Part shown: positions 5,706 to 23,364 of the stretch, piece after piece | How the letters are laid out: each line of letters starts with the position of its first letter | Numbering within the stretch: the stretch's first letter is position 1 | IMG/VR virus record: IMGVR_UViG_3300037573_000241 | Location: 1-24,529 of that record | Direction: 5' to 3' (one strand) | Origin: a virus | Length of the DNA: 24,529 bases | The notes under the pieces: generated by a model | What the model was told of the DNA's origin: nothing | The model's database searches: none | What the model saw: the letters and a program-made list of their open reading frames with translations, nothing else | Translations under genes and position numbers: made by a program

Positions 5706-6449
5706 TCAGCTTATACTAGCAATAAATTTTTGTATATACTCAGCATACCGCTGACATCCATACTTGTTGGGGTGGGAGTCAGTAGCTGATACCTGAAAGC
5801 CGTGGTCTTCTGACGTACTTAATTGTTGTAATGGCAACCAATCAGTGACACTATTAAAACAACGTGACATAGTTTTATTAGTAAAGTGCTTTTTTAGACC
5901 TGGACTTCTATGCTCCTCATATACATATTGGCTATGTATGTCGCCCCATATCACAGTAGCATTAGTATTAATTTTTTCGTAGTTCATTACTCTCTTCACA
6001 GATTCAACAAATAAGTTGTCCATGCCAGTGTAACCATTCCCTTTAGTAGGTAATAAAAATCGTTGCATGTAATCCTTAGCAAGTGTTACTTGATTTTCTC
6101 TCAGAGAGTCTTCCAGTTCAAAGTCACTATCTCGCATACCGTTTAGACTCGATATTTTTCCATCTTTACCAAAAAATGGATAGCGAATATCTATAGTGAA
6201 TCCAAATATCATTAAAGGTTTTTTAAATGTACTTGTAGTTTGTAACGGTTGCAACGATATTTCTGTATTACTTGCACCACCCCTAGACAAATTAACACAT
6301 GGCACATTTAGTTCTTTTGCTAAGAAGACGGGCCAAGCATTCTGTGGTTCACGTACTGTCGAAATATGCTTTAGCACTAAATCTTCGGATTCATAGACCG
6401 GTCCATTTGTGTAACTATCGCCACACGCAATTATTCCATCAAAATCCAT
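5706..6449 (-). CDS. SGNH/GDSL-hydrolase-like protein (second of a tandem pair)
   Basis: 247 residues with the blocks of SGNH hydrolases. Block I is GDSYTNG near residue 10 (nucleophile Ser). An RGGASNTE block supplies the oxyanion Gly and Asn. Near the C-terminus ATDSHPNKYG carries the catalytic Asp-x-His. Family members are esterases or deacetylases acting on acetylated sugars, lipids or peptidoglycan. There is no signal peptide, so it acts in the cytoplasm or as part of the virion. It overlaps the upstream paralogue by 11 bases (6439-6449), and the two share RGGASNTEI(S/A)LQPLQ and DWLPLQ/GWLPLQ-type segments, so they arose by duplication. Location among virion genes suggests action on surface glycans or modification of a virion part. 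The substrate is not known. Confidence 0.8.
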   Translation of the reverse strand: MDFDGIIACGDSYTNGPVYESEDLVLKHISTVREPQNAWPVFLAKELNVPCVNLSRGGASNTEISLQPLQTTSTFKKPLMIFGFTIDIRYPFFGKDGKISSLNGMRDSDFELEDSLRENQVTLAKDYMQRFLLPTKGNGYTGMDNLFVESVKRVMNYEKINTNATVIWGDIHSQYVYEEHRSPGLKKHFTNKTMSRCFNSVTDWLPLQQLSTSEDHGFQVSATDSHPNKYGCQRYAEYIQKFIASIS

Positions 6450-7188
6450 TATTGTTCTCTAGTAGTTGTATAAAAAAATCAGCATACAGTTGTATGCCTC
6501 TTTCATTAGGGTGATGATCATTTGCTTTTAGCCAGTACTTCTCGTCTTCGTCGGTCAAGTGTTGTAATGGCAACCAACCTGAATGTTTATTAAAGCAATA
6601 GTCTCTATAAGGTAGTAATAGTTTTCTATCAACTACATCTTTAGGATCACTATTATGTATCCATCCCCACATAACTTCTGCATTAGGATTGATAATTTTA
6701 TATTGCATCATAATTTTTATAGATTGCTGAGTAGCAAACAAATATCCATCTATGCCTTCATGAGGTTCATCGCAACTACTCCGCTGACGTATCTCGGTAT
6801 CATCCATATCGGGATAATATGTATTCAGCATATCCAAAGCAAACTTTTTTAAATACCTAACATCGCCCTCATCCAGGTGTTCTGGCAATATACTGTAATG
6901 ACTATGAATTACTCCCTTATTTGGCTTAAAGTAAGGCAATCTATGAGGCATTGTTAATCCGAATATTATTAATGGGTGTTTTGCTTTAGCAAACTCGGGT
7001 ATGCCGGATTGTAACGGTTGTAATGCTATTTCTGTATTACTTGCACCGCCTCTAGCTATATTAGAAAATGGTATTTTGAAATGCTTGGCAACAATACCGG
7101 GCCAAGTACCTTCTGGACCGTTGCCTATAATGTCTTGGCACCCTTCGGTAAAACTATCTCCACATGCTAGTAAATAATCGTATTCCAT
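6439..7188 (-). CDS. SGNH/GDSL-hydrolase-like protein (first of a tandem pair)
   Basis: 249 residues, paralogous to the gene it overlaps. Block I is GDSFTEG near residue 11, the Gly/Asn block is RGGASNTEIALQPLQ, and ANDHHPNERG near residue 230 supplies the Asp-x-His pair. All catalytic positions are intact, so both copies are probably active. Length and layout match single-domain SGNH esterases; no export signal or fused carbohydrate-binding domain is seen. It is the first minus-strand gene after a divergent non-coding region (7189-7459). No clean late motif lies upstream; the nearest, CTAAATAA, is imperfect. Likely roles, by inference, are deacetylating host surface polysaccharide or acting as a tail-associated esterase. 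Confidence 0.8.
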   Translation of the reverse strand: MEYDYLLACGDSFTEGCQDIIGNGPEGTWPGIVAKHFKIPFSNIARGGASNTEIALQPLQSGIPEFAKAKHPLIIFGLTMPHRLPYFKPNKGVIHSHYSILPEHLDEGDVRYLKKFALDMLNTYYPDMDDTEIRQRSSCDEPHEGIDGYLFATQQSIKIMMQYKIINPNAEVMWGWIHNSDPKDVVDRKLLLPYRDYCFNKHSGWLPLQHLTDEDEKYWLKANDHHPNERGIQLYADFFIQLLENNNGF

Positions 7189-9888: not shown

Positions 9889-10226
9889 TGCCTTTAGAGT
9901 TTCGATAGTCCGATTTTTGCGTTTTGACGCTCGTTTTGTACAGACTTTAAACAACAAAAACAAATCGCAAGGTCAACGTTGGCTTGGACCTTGATAAACT
10001 AAATAGCCTTAGAGTTGATAGCCTTGATTGTCAGTGACATATTGTCAGAAATTTTGATATATCGGGACAAACAAAAGAGCGGGTGTGATAACGCTTGAGG
10101 GGCAAGAAATCCCAAAGAGTTAAGGCACACAAAAAGGCGAGATTTCGCTTGTGTAGATAGCCAGTAAGTAATAGTATGTCCTATGAAAACTGGCCCACCA
10201 CACTTAAACTAGGATAAATAAAAACT
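9889..10226 (+). ncRNA. Candidate structured non-coding RNA upstream of tRNA-Pro
   Basis: 338 bases without a credible ORF, rich in helices. A 7-bp hairpin CAAGGTC/GACCTTG lies at 9968-9993. TGACA/TGTCA pairs at 10035-10047. A possible domain is closed by 10081-10087 with 10199-10205 (GGGTGTG/CACACTT, two wobble pairs) and encloses two good stems: 10127-10154 (ACACAA/TTGTGT plus GCGA/TCGC) and 10160-10194 (GCCAGT/ACTGGC with inner ATAG/CTAT). GCCTT(T)AGAGTT repeats near 9890 and 10006. I do not recognise tmRNA or RNase P features. A tRNA-adjacent large phage RNA recalls the GOLLD class only by location; I cannot match its consensus. Promoter not identified. Confidence 0.45.
10213..10220 (+). 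promoter_or_regulatory. Putative late promoter (GATAAATA) before tRNA-Pro
   Basis: GATAAATA preceded by CACTTAAACTAG ends seven bases before the first base of the tRNA. If it is used as a late promoter, the start would fall at the mature tRNA 5' end, so the tRNA may instead be processed from a longer transcript. Confidence 0.4.
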
Positions 10227-10303
10227 CGGAGTATAGGTCAGTCTGGTAGACCGCTACGTTTGGGACGTAGATGTCGGTGGTTCAAATCCATCTACTCCGA
10301 CCA
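10227..10303 (+). tRNA. tRNA-Pro (anticodon UGG)
   Basis: 77-base cloverleaf. Acceptor CGGAGTA pairs with TACTCCG (10293-10299), D-arm GGTC/GACC, anticodon stem CTACG/CGTAG around loop TTTGGGA with anticodon TGG at 10261-10263, and T-arm GGTGG-TTCAAAT-CCATC (G-U tolerant). Discriminator A and CCA are encoded (10300-10303). It reads CCA and, with wobble, other proline codons; phage tRNAs usually offset codon-use differences from the host. Confidence 0.95.
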
Positions 10304-12459: not shown

Positions 12460-13146
12460 TTGAGTGATAAGCCTAAAGAAGTTATAATAGAGAAAGAAGT
12501 AGAGAAAATAGTTGAGAAAATAGTAGAAGTTGAGAAAATAGTAGAAGTTGAGAAAATAGTAGAAGTTGAGAAAATAGTAGAAGTTGAGAAAATAGTAGAA
12601 GTTGAGATCCCAGTAGAAGTTATTAAGGAGGTAGAAGTTGAAAAAGTCGTTGAAAAGATTGTCGAGAAGCCGGTCGAAATCGAGAAGGAAGTCGTGGTTA
12701 CTAAAGAGGTCCCAGGACCAGAGCGAATTGTCGAAGTCCCAGGACCAGAGCGAATTGTCGAAGTCCCAGGACCAGAGCGAATTGTCGAAACGACAATCTA
12801 TAAAGATTTGGGACCAGAGCGAATTGTCCAAGTCCCAGGACCAGAGCGAATTGTAGTTAGGACAGATAATAGTAAGATAGAAGAACTTGAAAAGAAGTTA
12901 GCGGTTATGCCTTCTGTTGTTGAAAAAGCTAATGCTAATAATTTAATTGAAGCCGCTAGGATTATGTCCGAAAGCGAGTTCAATAAAGAAGGGTATACTG
13001 AGGAAGAAATATTAAATATGCTTACAAAGAGTAGTGAAGAAGATGTTAATCGTCAATTGAAAAACTTGGGGTTCTGGGCTATACCATTACCAAGAGACGA
13101 AGATGATAAACCAGATCCAGACAACATGAGGTATACCACAAAATAA
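12460..13146 (+). CDS. KIVEVE / PGPERIVEV repeat protein (probably the -1 frame continuation of the preceding gene)
   Basis: If translated alone from TTG at 12460 it has 228 residues. That start has no Shine-Dalgarno sequence, while the same frame reads open back through 12400 as helix-like sequence (RLEDSLKSLNKKYEKTLKLL), which supports fusion to the membrane coiled-coil protein. Domains in order: five identical KIVEVE hexads plus variants (about residues 18-55); a Val/Glu/Lys-rich stretch; nonapeptides of the form VPGPERIVE, three exact and two variant (about 83-132); a coiled coil; and a C-terminal domain with YTEEEILNMLTKSSEEDVNRQ. Such repeats suggest an extended rod or spacer. The stop overlaps the clpX start (TAATG). 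Function unknown. Confidence 0.7.
   Translation: MSDKPKEVIIEKEVEKIVEKIVEVEKIVEVEKIVEVEKIVEVEKIVEVEIPVEVIKEVEVEKVVEKIVEKPVEIEKEVVVTKEVPGPERIVEVPGPERIVEVPGPERIVETTIYKDLGPERIVQVPGPERIVVRTDNSKIEELEKKLAVMPSVVEKANANNLIEAARIMSESEFNKEGYTEEEILNMLTKSSEEDVNRQLKNLGFWAIPLPRDEDDKPDPDNMRYTTK
12514..12621 (+). repeat. 18-bp tandem repeat (five exact copies plus one degenerate)
   Basis: GAGAAAATAGTAGAAGTT repeats exactly from 12514 to 12603, then a changed copy (GAGATCCCAGTAGAAGTT) ends at 12621. Each unit encodes one six-residue Glu-Lys-Ile-Val-Glu-Val unit. Exact synonymous identity suggests slippage-driven change in copy number. Confidence 0.95.
12709..12855 (+). repeat. 27-bp tandem repeat encoding VPGPERIVE units
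   Basis: Three exact 27-base units at 12709-12735, 12736-12762 and 12763-12789. After a 21-base interruption come two diverged units up to about 12855. The core GGACCAGAGCGAATTGT is identical in all five. Confidence 0.93.
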
Positions 13147-14429
13147 TGTCAGATAATAAGTCAAATAATAAAGATAGTAACTTAGAATGTAGTTTTTGCG
13201 GTAAGAAGCGACATGATGTACGAAAGCTAATAGCAGGACCTAATTCATATATTTGCAACGAGTGTGTAAGTATAAGCCATAAAATTATTAACGAGGATTA
13301 CGATACTAATCCAAGCATGGAACTGGAGGATATACCTACCCCACAAGAAATCAAAGACTATTTAGATGAATATGTAATTAGCCAAGACTATGCAAAAGAA
13401 ATACTAAGTGTATGTGCATATAATCATTACAAGAAAACATATTACAGCGATGACAAAGACAGCATTGAAAAAAGTAACGTATTATTAATAGGTAGTACAG
13501 GTACAGGTAAAACACTAGTAGTACAAACACTTGCTAGAATGTTAGGCGTACCATTTGCTATAGCAGATGCAACTACACTTACTGAAGCAGGATACGTTGG
13601 AGAAGATGTAGAGAGTGTAATCGAACGATTACTTAATACATGTGATTGGAATGTAGATAAAGCACAGAAGGGCATCGTGTTTATAGACGAGATTGATAAG
13701 AAAGCTCGTAGCAGTGAGTCTAACACCAATACAAAGGACATTAGTGGAGAGGGTGTACAACAAGCACTCCTAAGACTGATAGAAGGAACTACTGTAAAAA
13801 TTTCAGTTAACGGTTCAAAACGTATGGACGACTTTATTGAATTCGATACTAAAGACGTATTGTTTATAGTAGGAGGAGCATTTGTAGGGTTAGACAAGAT
13901 TGTAAACAAAAAATTAAAGAAAGGGTCTATAGGATTCAATCAAAAAGTTTATAGTAAAGGAACAGACCAAAATTGGTTAGACCATGTAGAACATGAAGAT
14001 ATTATCAGCTATGGATTAATTCCAGAGTTTGCTGGTCGATTACCTAACATTGTGGGATTAGAAGATTTAGATGAAGATGATATGTTTAACATATTAACTA
14101 ATGCCAAATCAAGTTGTATCACACAGGTAAAGAAATTACTAGAATTAGATGAAATAGAATTACAGTTTGAGGAACAATATCTTAAAGATGTAGCCGGGAT
14201 TGCTGTAAAGAATAAAGTTGGGGCAAGAGGACTAAAAAGCATTGTAGAAAACAGTCTACATAATATAATGTTTAGGGCTCCAGCATTAAAACAGCAAAGT
14301 GTCCAACAAGTTATATTTAGTAAGTATCCTATAACGGTTGACATGCACCCTGTATTTGTGTATACTAATGGGACTAGTGAAATAGATAAGCACTATAAAA
14401 TTAAACATAGAGGTAAAAGTGGGTTATAA
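13146..14429 (+). CDS. clpX: ClpX-like AAA+ unfoldase, full length with zinc domain
   Basis: 427 residues, the usual ClpX length. It unfolds proteins with ATP and feeds them to the ClpP protease. Seen in order: N-terminal zinc domain (Cys15, 18, 37, 40); Walker A GSTGTGKT (116-123); pore loop GYVG (149-152); Walker B IVFIDEID (177-184); IGF loop (262-264), the ClpP-docking tripeptide; and sensor-2 GARGLKSI. The RKH pore loop of bacterial ClpX is altered (GSKRMDD), which could change substrate choice, for example for ssrA tags. No clpP is in the window, so it probably works with host ClpP. It overlaps the repeat-protein stop (TAATG), and bS21 starts inside its 3' end. Confidence 0.93.
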   Translation: MSDNKSNNKDSNLECSFCGKKRHDVRKLIAGPNSYICNECVSISHKIINEDYDTNPSMELEDIPTPQEIKDYLDEYVISQDYAKEILSVCAYNHYKKTYYSDDKDSIEKSNVLLIGSTGTGKTLVVQTLARMLGVPFAIADATTLTEAGYVGEDVESVIERLLNTCDWNVDKAQKGIVFIDEIDKKARSSESNTNTKDISGEGVQQALLRLIEGTTVKISVNGSKRMDDFIEFDTKDVLFIVGGAFVGLDKIVNKKLKKGSIGFNQKVYSKGTDQNWLDHVEHEDIISYGLIPEFAGRLPNIVGLEDLDEDDMFNILTNAKSSCITQVKKLLELDEIELQFEEQYLKDVAGIAVKNKVGARGLKSIVENSLHNIMFRAPALKQQSVQQVIFSKYPITVDMHPVFVYTNGTSEIDKHYKIKHRGKSGL

Positions 14430-19943: not shown

Positions 19944-20378
19944 ATGAAAGAAAAGCAAAACTTTCTTAGTAAGAGTATTCACGAGAACTCGGATCCCACA
20001 CAGTCGCATTTGATAGTGTGTGCTCCGTGTAACGACGATGCAGACTATGAATGGGTAACTGAGGTAGGTGTGAATGAAGCCATTGCTCCTTTTAAAGCAT
20101 GGTTCGTTGACAATAATATACCTCATGTATTTGAAATGAACTGGGGCAATCCTTGGCTTGGCGATCAAACCGGAGATATAATGTTGACAGCCTCCCCTAC
20201 ACATACATTTTGTATTAATGTAACAGTTAGAGCAAACAAAAGACCGATGACTAAAGAAGAAAGAATGGTATTTGAATTAAAATTTTTAAACAAATTCCCA
20301 ATTACTAATTTGGGTCCATACATAGAACAAGGTATGAGGAAAATGGGAGAGGCCGAAGGTGAGCAAGAACAAAAGTAG
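19944..20378 (+). CDS. Hypothetical protein (144 residues)
   Basis: Acidic soluble protein; the centre has Trp-rich FEMNWGNPWLG and a TGDIMLTASPTH stretch, and the end has a basic-acidic helix (EQGMRKMGEAEGEQEQK). No motif recognised. It starts nine bases after the HNH gene and overlaps the next gene by 20 bases, so it is in the same transcription unit. Confidence 0.7.
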   Translation: MKEKQNFLSKSIHENSDPTQSHLIVCAPCNDDADYEWVTEVGVNEAIAPFKAWFVDNNIPHVFEMNWGNPWLGDQTGDIMLTASPTHTFCINVTVRANKRPMTKEERMVFELKFLNKFPITNLGPYIEQGMRKMGEAEGEQEQK

Positions 20379-20628
20379 AGATAGAGCATTTAAAGAATCA
20401 GTACAAGACACAATGTTAGCATTAATTATAAACTTCCCGCTAAACATGATATTGCTATACATAGCAAATAGAACTTTTTTATTGGTATTAGAAAGAGAAG
20501 GTGATAGGATATTTTGGACATCGGTGTTCTTAACATCCGTCTTTACTATCTTTGCAATTGTGCGAAAAACCTATGTCAGAATGTATTTTGAAAAGAAAAA
20601 CTTAAGAATAATGCAAAAAAAGACTTGA
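20359..20628 (+). CDS. Small two-helix membrane protein
   Basis: 89 residues from GTG, with GGAGAGG about seven bases upstream. Two hydrophobic segments (about 20-45 and 53-68) are flanked by basic tails (SKNKSRDR and RKTYVRMYFEKKN), so both ends probably face the cytoplasm. The layout (basic NxSR start, a pair of helices, VRxYVxRxxF-like end) resembles small phage membrane proteins of the DUF7220 type as I remember them; this is a weak match. It could be an inner-membrane modifier or holin-like, but the early-type setting argues for host modification. The TGA stop lies within a weak promoter-like TTGATT. Confidence 0.65.
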   Translation: MSKNKSRDRAFKESVQDTMLALIINFPLNMILLYIANRTFLLVLEREGDRIFWTSVFLTSVFTIFAIVRKTYVRMYFEKKNLRIMQKKT

Positions 20629-20664
20629 TTTTTACCAAAAAAGCATTATATATTATATAAGTTG

Positions 20665-20672
20665 CATAAATA
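20665..20672 (+). promoter_or_regulatory. Possible late promoter (CATAAATA) before the structured RNA
   Basis: CATAAATA sits at the start of the non-coding region 20629-21027. A competing weak sigma70-like pair lies just upstream (TTGATT at 20625, TATATT at 20649, spacer 18). Either could start the RNA candidate. Confidence 0.35.
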
Positions 20673-20935
20673 ACTTTGCAATTTGGAAATGCAAGGGAAA
20701 AAGAATCGTAAGAAACAAGGACCTACTGTAAATTCAAATTGTTGTTTTAAAGGAAAGGATTCCTACACAAGGTAAGTAGATCGGTGGCCCGCAAGGACCG
20801 TAAGTGAAACAAACCGAATGGTAAGAAGAATAACTACTAAAACACCGGGGTAACCAACAAACGGCTTATAATGGCAACAGTATAAGACACGAAGAAGATT
20901 ACCAAGTAGAATAGGGCGACAGGACACACACTAAC

Positions 20936-20963
20936 GAATGCCGCTCTACTCCGCGTTCTTTTT
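20936..20963 (+). terminator. Rho-independent terminator of the structured RNA
   Basis: GAATGC (20936-20941) pairs with GCGTTC (20953-20958, one G-U), followed by TTTTT. Part of it can instead pair upstream (AGTAGA with TCTACT), the arrangement seen in attenuators. Confidence 0.65.
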
Positions 20964-21023
20964 ATTCGCCATATGGGTTTAAAAAGAAAGAGATAGAAAT
21001 TAACTTGCTTTTTAAAAGGAGAA
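20956..21023 (+). promoter_or_regulatory. Possible FourU-like RNA thermometer on the hsp20 ribosome site
   Basis: TTCTTTTT (20956-20963) can pair with AAAGGAGAA (21015-21023): eight pairs including two wobble pairs, covering the Shine-Dalgarno AGGAG. A small local hairpin CUUU-UUAA-AAGG also touches it. U-rich pairing with AGGAG is the principle of FourU thermometers, which control small heat-shock genes. The long loop makes this tentative. Confidence 0.3.
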
Positions 21024-21027
21024 AATT

Positions 21028-21468
21028 ATGAATAAGCAGATCAGAATCACATCCGATTCACTATCCCCACTATATAAAATGAGCGTCGGTTTTGACAGAA
21101 TGGCAGAACAGTTTTTCAACGACCCGTCATTTTCACAAAACGGAACAGGCTATCCGCCTTATAACATCACCAAGACCAAAGACGACGTCTATGAGATTAC
21201 TCTTGCTATTGCAGGATTTAAAAAATCAGATATCGAAATTGAACTTGAAGATGGTACTCTCAAAATTCATGGTACTTCAAATGTACTAGATATTAAAGAA
21301 ACTGAATTCTTACACAAAGGCATTGCAGAGAGAAATTTCATTAGAACTTTCAAACTTGCAGAGTATGTTGAAGTGAAAGATGCTAAACTACAAGATGGTT
21401 TACTAAGAGTCCAGCTAGAGAGAAATGTTCCTGAAGCGATGAAACCGCAAAAAATTAAAATATCTTAA
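21028..21468 (+). CDS. hsp20: Hsp20 small heat-shock chaperone (IbpA-type)
   Basis: 146 residues. The N-terminal LSPLYKMSVGFDRMAEQFF and YPPYNI are typical of bacterial IbpA-like proteins. The alpha-crystallin domain spans about 44-135 (DVYEITLAIAGFKKSDIEIELEDGTLKIHG ... ERNFIRTFKLAEYVEV ... LQDGLLRVQLERNVPE is the order of its segments). It holds unfolded proteins without ATP. Hsp20 genes are common in T4-like cyanophages and other marine myophages, probably aiding capsid folding or stress protection. Ribosome site AAGGAG lies six bases upstream; no sigma70 promoter is seen, so it may be read through from the structured RNA or by the motif at 20665. Confidence 0.93.
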   Translation: MNKQIRITSDSLSPLYKMSVGFDRMAEQFFNDPSFSQNGTGYPPYNITKTKDDVYEITLAIAGFKKSDIEIELEDGTLKIHGTSNVLDIKETEFLHKGIAERNFIRTFKLAEYVEVKDAKLQDGLLRVQLERNVPEAMKPQKIKIS

Positions 21469-21475
21469 TTTTGTT

Positions 21476-21483
21476 GATAAATA
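21476..21483 (+). promoter_or_regulatory. Possible late promoter (GATAAATA) in the hsp20-clpS gap
   Basis: GATAAATA follows the hsp20 stop by seven bases. The following bases can fold (GGGTAG/CTACCT around 21487-21512), without a T run. With the sigma70 promoter at 21542 it would give clpS-sufB both late and early starts. Confidence 0.35.
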
Positions 21484-21541
21484 TGTGGGTAGTAGTAATT
21501 TAACTGCTACCTACTATTACAGTCAATTTGTTCCATAAAGG

Positions 21542-21570
21542 TTGCATAATAGTAATAACTAGTGTATAAT
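21542..21570 (+). promoter_or_regulatory. Sigma70-type promoter of clpS-sufB
   Basis: TTGCAT (weaker -35, 21542-21547), 17-base spacer, TATAAT (21565-21570), 31 bases before the clpS ATG. Less perfect than the other plus-strand promoters. Confidence 0.65.
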
Positions 21571-21601
21571 ACTATTTAACCACACAGAGCAAGGGTAACA
21601 C

Positions 21602-21901
21602 ATGGCTAAAGAGGCAGTAAAGACAAGAACATCCACAGAACTTCGGTATCCTTCTAGGTTTAATGTTGTTATATACAATGATGATTTTACTCCTGTAGAG
21701 TTTGTTATAAAATTATTAATAGAGATATTTAACAAAAACATTACTACAGCAAAAACATTAACTCAGTCTGTGCATACAGATGGACACGCTATTGTAGGAT
21801 CGTACAACTCAGAAATTGCTGAACAAAAGTGTGCGGAGGCAATTACAGTATCTAGGGCATCAGGGCATCCTTTACAACTTAAAGTTGAAAGAATAGGATG
21901 A
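21602..21901 (+). CDS. clpS: ClpS-like N-degron adaptor
   Basis: 99 residues, near the usual ClpS length. The core VVIYNDDFTPVEFVI matches the binding-pocket signature (NDDxTPMEFV in E. coli, with the gate Met replaced by Val), followed by SVHTDGHAIVG, EIAEQKCAEAITVSRASGHPLQLKVE, which keep the pocket His and the C-terminal contacts. ClpS hands proteins with destabilising N-terminal residues to ClpA (or ClpC). Here the same phage also carries clpX, so both arms of Clp proteolysis may be steered. Its last bases overlap the sufB start (ATGA), so the two are coupled. Confidence 0.93.
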   Translation: MAKEAVKTRTSTELRYPSRFNVVIYNDDFTPVEFVIKLLIEIFNKNITTAKTLTQSVHTDGHAIVGSYNSEIAEQKCAEAITVSRASGHPLQLKVERIG

Positions 21902-23364
21902 GTATCGATAACCTTAACACTTCAAAATACGAACAAGGCTTTGATACTAAGGTAGAAACTGAAAGTTTACCACCAGGGCTAGACGAAAAAACTGTAAGAA
22001 AAATTAGTGCTATTAAAGGAGAGCCGGAGTGGTTATTGGACTTCAGATTAAAAGCATTTAAGAAATGGGTAGGTATGGTCGAACCCGATTGGAGTGAGTT
22101 AACTTATGTGCCTATCGATTACCAAGCACTCAGTTATTACTCGGCTCCCAAGTTTTTTGAAGAAGGCGATATCCCACAAGAGATTTTCGATACGTTTGAA
22201 AAGTTAGGTGTGCCATTACATGAGCGTGATGCATTAATGGGATTAGAATCAAAGAAGATAGAACCAAAAAAGAGTAAGGGCGACATACCATTAGTAGCTA
22301 TTGATGCAGTATTTGATAGTGTAAGTATTGCTACAACATTCCAAGCAGAATTAAAGAAACACGGTATTATATTCAGTAGTATCAGCGAAGCAGTACAAGA
22401 CCATCCAGAACTAGTTAAGCAATATTTAGGCACAGTTGTACCATACACTGACAATTACTTTGCCACACTGAACTCTGCGGTGTTCACAGACGGTACATTT
22501 GTATACGTTCCACCCGGCGTTAAATGTCCCATGGAGTTAAACACTTACTTTAGAATCAATGCCCGGAACACAGGACAGTTCGAACGTACACTTGTTATAG
22601 CAGACAAAGACAGTTATGTTAGTTACTTAGAAGGCTGTACAGCACCAGCGTATGATGAGAACACGCTACATGCGGCTGTTGTGGAGCTCGTAACCCATGA
22701 CAGAGCAGAGATCAAGTACAGTACAGTACAGAATTGGTATGCTGGTGATGAGAATGGTGTGGGAGGAGTTTATAACTTCGTAACCAAACGAGCCATGTGC
22801 AAAGGTGTAGACAGTAAAGTAAGTTGGACGCAAGTCGAAACTGGTAGTGCTATCACATGGAAGTATCCAAGTTGTATACTTAAAGGCGATGGTAGTATTG
22901 GTGAGTTCTTTAGTGTTGCAGTTACCCAAGGTAAGCAACAAGCAGATACTGGAACTAAAATGATACACCTTGGAAAGAACACTAAGAGTACGATTATATC
23001 CAAAGGCATTAGTTTTGGAGATAGTACAAACACTTATAGAGGCTCAGTTAAAGTTAATCGTGGTGCCCACAATGCTCAGAACTTTACTAAGTGCGATAGT
23101 TTAATGTTACAAGACAGTAGAGCATTAACTATCCCTTACATCACAAGCCAGAATAATAGTGCTAAGATAGAGCATGAAGCAAGTGCCGGAAAGATTAGTG
23201 AAGATCAATTATATTATTTACAAAGTAGAGGTCTCAGCGAAGATGATGCTATGAATCTTGTTGTTAACGGATTCTGCAAAGATGTATTCCAAAAGTTACC
23301 ATTAGAATTTGCCGCAGAAGCAAATAAACTATTAAGTGTAACACTAGAAGGAGCAGTAGGATAA
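21898..23364 (+). CDS. sufB: SufB, Fe-S cluster assembly scaffold subunit
   Basis: 488 residues, full length for SufB, the main scaffold of the SufBCD complex that builds Fe-S clusters. The C-terminal beta-helix and family signatures are intact: GCTAPAYDENTLHAAVVEL, FTKCDSLML with Cys399 (equivalent to the essential E. coli Cys405), IEHEAS, and VNGFCKDVFQKLPLEFAAEA. The N-terminal part (SAIKGEPEWLLDFRLKAF) is canonical. So it looks functional, not a relic. It is coupled to clpS upstream (ATGA overlap) and followed by sufC 39 bases on. Closest relatives cannot be told here, but proteobacterial-type sequence is likely. Confidence 0.97.
   Translation: MSIDNLNTSKYEQGFDTKVETESLPPGLDEKTVRKISAIKGEPEWLLDFRLKAFKKWVGMVEPDWSELTYVPIDYQALSYYSAPKFFEEGDIPQEIFDTFEKLGVPLHERDALMGLESKKIEPKKSKGDIPLVAIDAVFDSVSIATTFQAELKKHGIIFSSISEAVQDHPELVKQYLGTVVPYTDNYFATLNSAVFTDGTFVYVPPGVKCPMELNTYFRINARNTGQFERTLVIADKDSYVSYLEGCTAPAYDENTLHAAVVELVTHDRAEIKYSTVQNWYAGDENGVGGVYNFVTKRAMCKGVDSKVSWTQVETGSAITWKYPSCILKGDGSIGEFFSVAVTQGKQQADTGTKMIHLGKNTKSTIISKGISFGDSTNTYRGSVKVNRGAHNAQNFTKCDSLMLQDSRALTIPYITSQNNSAKIEHEASAGKISEDQLYYLQSRGLSEDDAMNLVVNGFCKDVFQKLPLEFAAEANKLLSVTLEGAVG

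Follow-up and report, generated by a model that had tools for sequence, protein, structure and literature searches.

A ROSE-like leader RNA of a viral hsp20 gene, preceded by a covarying RNA domain

The locus and its gene-free leader

The window that we analyzed is the whole 24,529-nucleotide stretch formed by positions 1-24,529 of a 24.5-kb virus record (IMGVR_UViG_3300037573_000241). A region on its plus strand, at 20629-21027, lies between an ORF of 89 aa (20359-20628) and a gene coding for a small heat shock protein, hsp20 (21028-21468, plus strand; Pfam HSP20, E = 2.3e-17; phrog_432), which is followed downstream by clpS and then sufB. The region had been described as gene-free, and this was borne out, as the ORF listing shows none of 60 aa or longer there. 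Searching the window against Rfam returned a single match, a tRNA. The window also carries, at 13146-14429 and 21028-23364, genes for a ClpX-like protein (with a zinc finger), Hsp20, ClpS, and SufB, which is an unusual combination of protein-quality with Fe-S genes. An ORF at 12460-13146 contains long VEKIVEVEKIVEVEK and VPGPERIVE repeats; on the minus strand, two adjacent, overlapping ORFs (5706-6449 and 6439-7188) start alike (ACGDSYTNG and ACGDSFTEG) and look like tandem GDSL-type hydrolase paralogues.

Two promoter-like sequences are found just upstream of the leader. The first, a sigma-70-like promoter (TTGATT, 18 nt, TATATT; 20625-20654, plus strand), matches the consensus at 9 of 12 positions, a score within chance expectation for the region; TTGATTTTTTGCCAAAAAA..ACTATATAAT of this stretch is kept among relatives. 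The second, CATAAATA (20665-20672, plus strand), is like the T4-type late promoter TATAAATA and may act as one. Its ATAAATA shows no variation in the first seven aligned leaders, NATAAATA is present at the site in 22 of 23 leaders, and counts of DATAAATA in non-coding upstream DNA were 22 in sense and 10 in antisense orientation. This reading stays tentative because none of the contigs searched that carry the D-E modules described below yielded T4-type capsid or portal families. The same motif, as GATAAATA, occurs at 10213-10220, immediately 5' of a tRNA-Pro gene (10227-10303). The leader itself would extend from a putative transcription start at 20673 to the last nucleotide before hsp20.

A covarying RNA domain upstream of hsp20

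Leaders were collected through Hsp20 searches (viral contigs; bacterial and archaeal genomes) and two DNA pattern scans. Twenty-three distinct viral leaders share a core of two modules, D and E, all of them 5' of hsp20. The first scan recognized the element solely upstream of hsp20, other matches that we inspected being unrelated sequence, and the second gave 17 contigs, all hsp20 leaders as far as examined. A covariance model built from the D-E part (R1) matched hsp20-leader sites only in 712 kb, and in seven records of 57-130 kb it matched once per record. The distance of D-E from the hsp20 start is always ~180 nt.

Module D (20847-20903, plus strand) consists of P1 (GGUAA/UUACC), a short 2-bp P2, and P3 (20865-20886) with a GCAA tetraloop of the GNRA type, and module E (20912-20948, plus strand) is a stem, UAGGGCG/CGCUCUA, around a conserved loop, ACAGGACACACACUAACGAAUG (20919-20940). 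The original prediction had drawn hairpins at 20865-20886 and 20905-20950 and asked for compensatory changes; both hairpins exist, as P3 of D and as E, and compensatory changes in both stems were found among the 23 distinct homologues in an unadjusted MAFFT alignment. Two-sided changes occur at 5/5 pairs of P1 and 7/8 pairs of P3 in the plain alignment, and at 7/7 stem pairs of E; once the alignment was hand-adjusted, P1 was paired in 119 of 119 cells. Scoring a structure of 39 pairs on the unadjusted alignment of 23 leaders (A3) revealed that 88.5% of cells were paired (shuffled: 73.6%) and that 27 pairs were changed on both sides (shuffled: 18.1). The covariation score was 0.428, compared to 0.169 in shuffles and at most 0.104 with slid partners, the slide control being biased towards the scored structure, which was drawn from the same sequences. 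Folding energy of the single sequence was dropped as evidence of structure, the stability being ordinary and the z values (-0.6 and -0.2) uninformative; the evidence for structure is therefore comparative and not energetic.

The E loop is nearly invariant among leaders with the same version of E, and some relatives have another version of the whole stem-loop (GUGAGGAGAUACAGACACACACUAACAGAAACGACCUCAC type). In columns 75-113 of A3 the two versions alternate among close relatives (leaders L041 vs. L187; L067 and L052 vs. L189, L191, and L193), as if swapped as cassettes through recombination. No partner sequence complementary to the E loop was found elsewhere in the window.

Further hairpins lie upstream of the core. 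Module A (20678-20742, plus strand) is closed by GCAAUUUG/CAAAUUGU and has 2x2 A-rich internal loops and a GUAA tetraloop; in 18 leaders, 213 of 234 cells were paired, compared to 190 when shuffled (maximum 200). Module B (20767-20823, plus strand), aligned by eye, is a second copy of the A-type hairpin, in which three relatives show a C-G to G-C change flanking the GUAA loop. The repeated G(G)UAAG loops that had been pointed out in this stretch are real, and belong to one hairpin motif in two copies with a GUAA tetraloop, the first of which covaries. An early search pattern for module A was mis-spaced and matched unrelated sites only. At the GUAA loop of B, this window has an inserted hairpin, CGGUGGCCCGCAAGGACCG (CGGU..ACCG, 20782-20800), that is absent from its relatives. 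A third module, C, is found upstream of D in L005, L041, L052, L062, L067, L172, L187, L189, L191, and L193; in it UCUUCAAAAG[AU]GC[AU]CGG (or a variant) occurs twice, the copies being mutually complementary (GUGCUC/GAGCAC) and their orientation swapped between leaders.

None of D-E, A, and B matched an Rfam (15) family above the gathering threshold, lax E-values giving chance matches and a sub-threshold ROSE_3 match (in L189). D-E with A/B is a structured RNA absent from Rfam 15, and the earlier statement that the stretch cannot be placed in a known class holds as far as Rfam matches above cut-off are concerned. On the Hsp20 tree, the D-E core falls within a single clade, whose 26 rows comprise 23 that have it and 3 that do not, and the least change that accounts for its presence and absence is 3, which would fit about one gain and two losses within this clade. 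Modules are also gained and lost between leaders, with few in L172, L008, and L010 and many in L041.

ROSE-like hairpins at the hsp20 ribosome-binding site

The Shine-Dalgarno sequence of hsp20, AGGAG (21017-21021, plus strand), is invariant in the 23 leaders and pairs with an anti-Shine-Dalgarno CUUGCU, with one bulged G, in a ROSE-type hairpin that we call G (21004-21021, plus strand) and that had been overlooked in the first reading. All six pairs of G are kept in 23/23 D-E leaders, and the pair next to CUUGCU:AGGAG varies (U-A in 14, A-U in 9). CUYGCU..AGGAG is present in 65 of 67 distinct viral hsp20 leaders, where the pair adjoining the box is standard in 59 of 65 (shuffled maximum: 53). 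With UYGCU..AGGA as the search pattern, 9/9 distinct named-phage leaders and 59/77 chromosomal hsp20 leaders were matched; among 424 other genes with a Shine-Dalgarno sequence, which served as controls, the strict box was found in 0 and the loose box in 14. Leaders without D-E, including those of cultured phages, consist of G and one further hairpin, F, only. Such short leaders are those of P-SSM3, HTVC008M, Mosig, Melnitz, and C48C1; in these and in HTVC115P, a U(U/C)GCU box pairs with the Shine-Dalgarno sequence. L148, L149, L146, L145, L147, and L144 are hsp20 leaders of cultured cyanophage, pelagiphage, and methylophage and of phage C48C1.

The leader has a U(U/C)GCU box, Shine-Dalgarno pairing with a bulged G, a place in the 5' UTR of a small heat shock gene, and a further hairpin (F) upstream, as ROSE-like elements do. 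The Rfam ROSE families (RF00435, RF01832, and RF02523) gave no match in the window. ROSE_3 or ROSE scored above the cut-off in two of the wider leader set (L153 and L301), and L189, which has D-E, matched ROSE_3 at the right place with 17.1 bits vs. a cut-off of 43. We therefore call the element ROSE-like and not an Rfam ROSE member. L153 (OQ572409.1), whose leader scores 69 bits with ROSE_3, comes from a record named Pseudomonas phage Y7 (UNVERIFIED) that possibly contains bacterial chromosome. F and G, which make up the last ~75 nt, add a new member, below Rfam thresholds, to the known ROSE-like kind and, by strong analogy, would respond to temperature as a two-hairpin RNA thermometer.

A two-state estimate over 47 distinct viral hairpins places the mean closed fraction of G at 99% at 15°C, 94% at 25°C, 63% at 37°C, and 31% at 45°C, i.e., near half-melted at ~37-40°C. 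Full-ensemble folding of the last 80 nt gave a mean Shine-Dalgarno accessibility at 15°C of 0.37 in D-E leaders vs. 0.48 in controls, with a modest rise with temperature and no clear separation from other genes; chromosomal hsp20 leaders were equally weak, and the energy model leaves out non-canonical ROSE pairs. A version with 60 nt upstream was flawed, cutting hairpin F, and was redone with 80 nt. By itself, full-ensemble folding does not prove a thermometer.

Hairpin F (20956-20988, plus strand; UUCUUUUUAUUCGCCAUAUGGGUUUAAAAAGAA), which corresponds to ROSE hairpin I and carries a bulged G, changed on both sides at 6 of 11 pairs, with 93% of cells paired. Its top, GCC..GG with the bulged G, is common to other viral and chromosomal hsp20 leaders. 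The terminator that the original prediction had given the RNA was not confirmed: a terminator scan found none, and the U-run that follows 20957 forms the 5' arm of F. The lower stem of F covaries, and its pairing is preserved in several relatives that break the run (UUAUCCUU, UUUGUUUA). An intrinsic terminator or attenuator hairpin with U-run was rejected on these grounds. Since it lacks a terminator of its own, runs unbroken into hsp20, and ends in a ROSE-like hairpin, we read the leader as acting in cis. What had been proposed as a non-coding RNA or attenuator leader is thus a conserved structured RNA, better read as a cis-acting translational leader.

Between E and F lies the linker CUCCGCG (20949-20955, plus strand). 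In most relatives this linker has a conserved GCGA that faces UUCGCC, is complementary to UUCGC of F, and could form an alternative helix with it, which agrees with the competing helices suggested earlier; the pairing, however, does not covary, and in the window it amounts to GCG:CGC only. We also considered, by eye, that the 3' arm of F might pair with the ROSE box, and discarded this because L008, L062, and L174 do not preserve it. Of 45 viral leaders that lack D-E, 35 have standard pairs at both positions under the bulged G of F; of the 23 that have D-E, 2 do, and mostly UU lies opposite UU there. This contrast suggests that F may have an extra role where D-E is present; it is one of conservation and not covariation, and relatedness contributes to it, as the D-E leaders are one clade.

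A proposed thermometer-receptor leader and its known counterparts

We consider it probable that 20673-21027 is a ~350-nt hsp20 5' leader, a thermometer acting in cis whose D-E part would be a receptor, most likely binding Hsp20. Below the heat-shock range, CUUGCU would pair with the Shine-Dalgarno sequence and keep translation low, and warming would melt the weak, G-bulged hairpin G and let ribosomes load. One viral clade appears to have added the folded D-E domain, usually with hairpins A and B, ahead of this thermometer; D-E would be tied to F through short conserved linkers, the top of F being altered alongside, a coupling that we infer from sequence comparison. As a receptor, D-E would tune the thermometer, Hsp20 oligomers being its most likely ligand: free Hsp20 would repress its own translation, and aggregated client proteins would relieve the repression, as for IbpA of Escherichia coli. 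Hsp20 is our conjectured ligand, and the first candidate, because D-E is found only with hsp20, because IbpA provides a precedent, and because motif counterparts of the essential Arg and aromatic residue of IbpA are present in 23/23 D-E Hsp20s. The same residues are common in Hsp20s without D-E; they are thus compatible with binding to D-E but are not specific evidence for it. A more specific version, which we regard as rather less likely than not, holds that D-E is a new class of RNA receptor linking F, and thereby the ROSE hairpin, to a second signal (free Hsp20 or the state of aggregation), so that the leader would be a viral sensor with two inputs, heat and protein damage, and the GCGA:UCGC helix perhaps its switch.

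D-E (and A/B) might instead sense a small molecule, an ion, or a host or phage RNA-binding protein unrelated to Hsp20 within the same cis-acting thermometer leader, an alternative that is credible if somewhat doubtful: a long, near-invariant loop in a covarying stem, GNRA-capped hairpins, and conserved linkers are typical of ligand- or protein-binding RNAs, but D-E occurs only with hsp20, and no other regulon member appeared in the data searched. We think it unlikely that the modules merely stabilize or insulate the 5' leader and prolong the life of the mRNA with no ligand. Their addition and loss would suit such a role, and stable 5' hairpins have been proposed to stabilize ibpA mRNA (PMC3669281); passive stems, though, would require neither a near-invariant unpaired loop nor the conserved linkers, and F differs specifically where D-E is present. 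The free-standing, trans-acting small RNA with its own terminator that was first envisaged could claim the strong conserved structure and the upstream promoter-like sequences, and is nevertheless improbable given the empty terminator scan, a U-run that pairs in F and is not kept unbroken among relatives, the constant spacing to hsp20, and the lack of an E-loop complement elsewhere in the window. It is scarcely believable that the domain is what remains of an intron or of a mobile RNA element inserted into the leader, as its presence/absence variation and cassette-like module exchange are set against no Rfam intron or ribozyme match, no occurrence outside hsp20 leaders, and a constant core length and position.

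For the thermometer-receptor reading that we prefer, the comparisons indicate that small heat shock genes of marine phages, including cyanophages, are generally preceded by ROSE-type thermometers, one clade having joined its thermometer to an RNA domain absent from Rfam. This makes it possible to test whether, during infection, viruses match chaperone supply to heat or to the aggregation of proteins, and it provides a natural composite in which a thermometer is joined by a second RNA domain.

Among ornate large phage RNAs, GOLLD and ROOL are likewise phage-borne, multi-hairpin, and modular. They are, however, far larger independent RNAs, and the phage hsp20 leader has no Rfam match. The FourU thermometer of SPbeta blyA (PMC10586365) is also reported as a prophage RNA thermometer, of another class and on another gene. 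IbpA represses its own mRNA by binding the structured 5' UTR, for which one Arg and one aromatic residue are needed (PMC10474464); the phage case shares a small heat shock protein with these residues and a thermometer-type 5' UTR, whereas that description contains no counterpart of D-E. Classical ROSE elements (Bradyrhizobium ROSE1 and E. coli ibpA; RF00435 and RF01832) are also multi-hairpin leaders of small heat shock genes with the ROSE box last, but the extra phage domain is matched by no ROSE model and has covarying helices and a conserved loop of its own. In the open-access literature searched, we found no reports of ROSE elements on phage hsp20. The short two-hairpin ROSE-like thermometer described for Pseudomonas ibpA (PMC3669281; RF02523, ROSE_3) has the same layout as F and G: it likewise belongs to a small heat shock gene, the U(U/C)GCU box of its last hairpin pairs with the Shine-Dalgarno sequence with a bulged G, and a more stable first hairpin lies directly upstream; the phage version differs in being viral, in its weak, A/U-rich hairpin, below the Rfam cut-off in D-E leaders, and in the ~300 nt of extra folded RNA that precede the thermometer.
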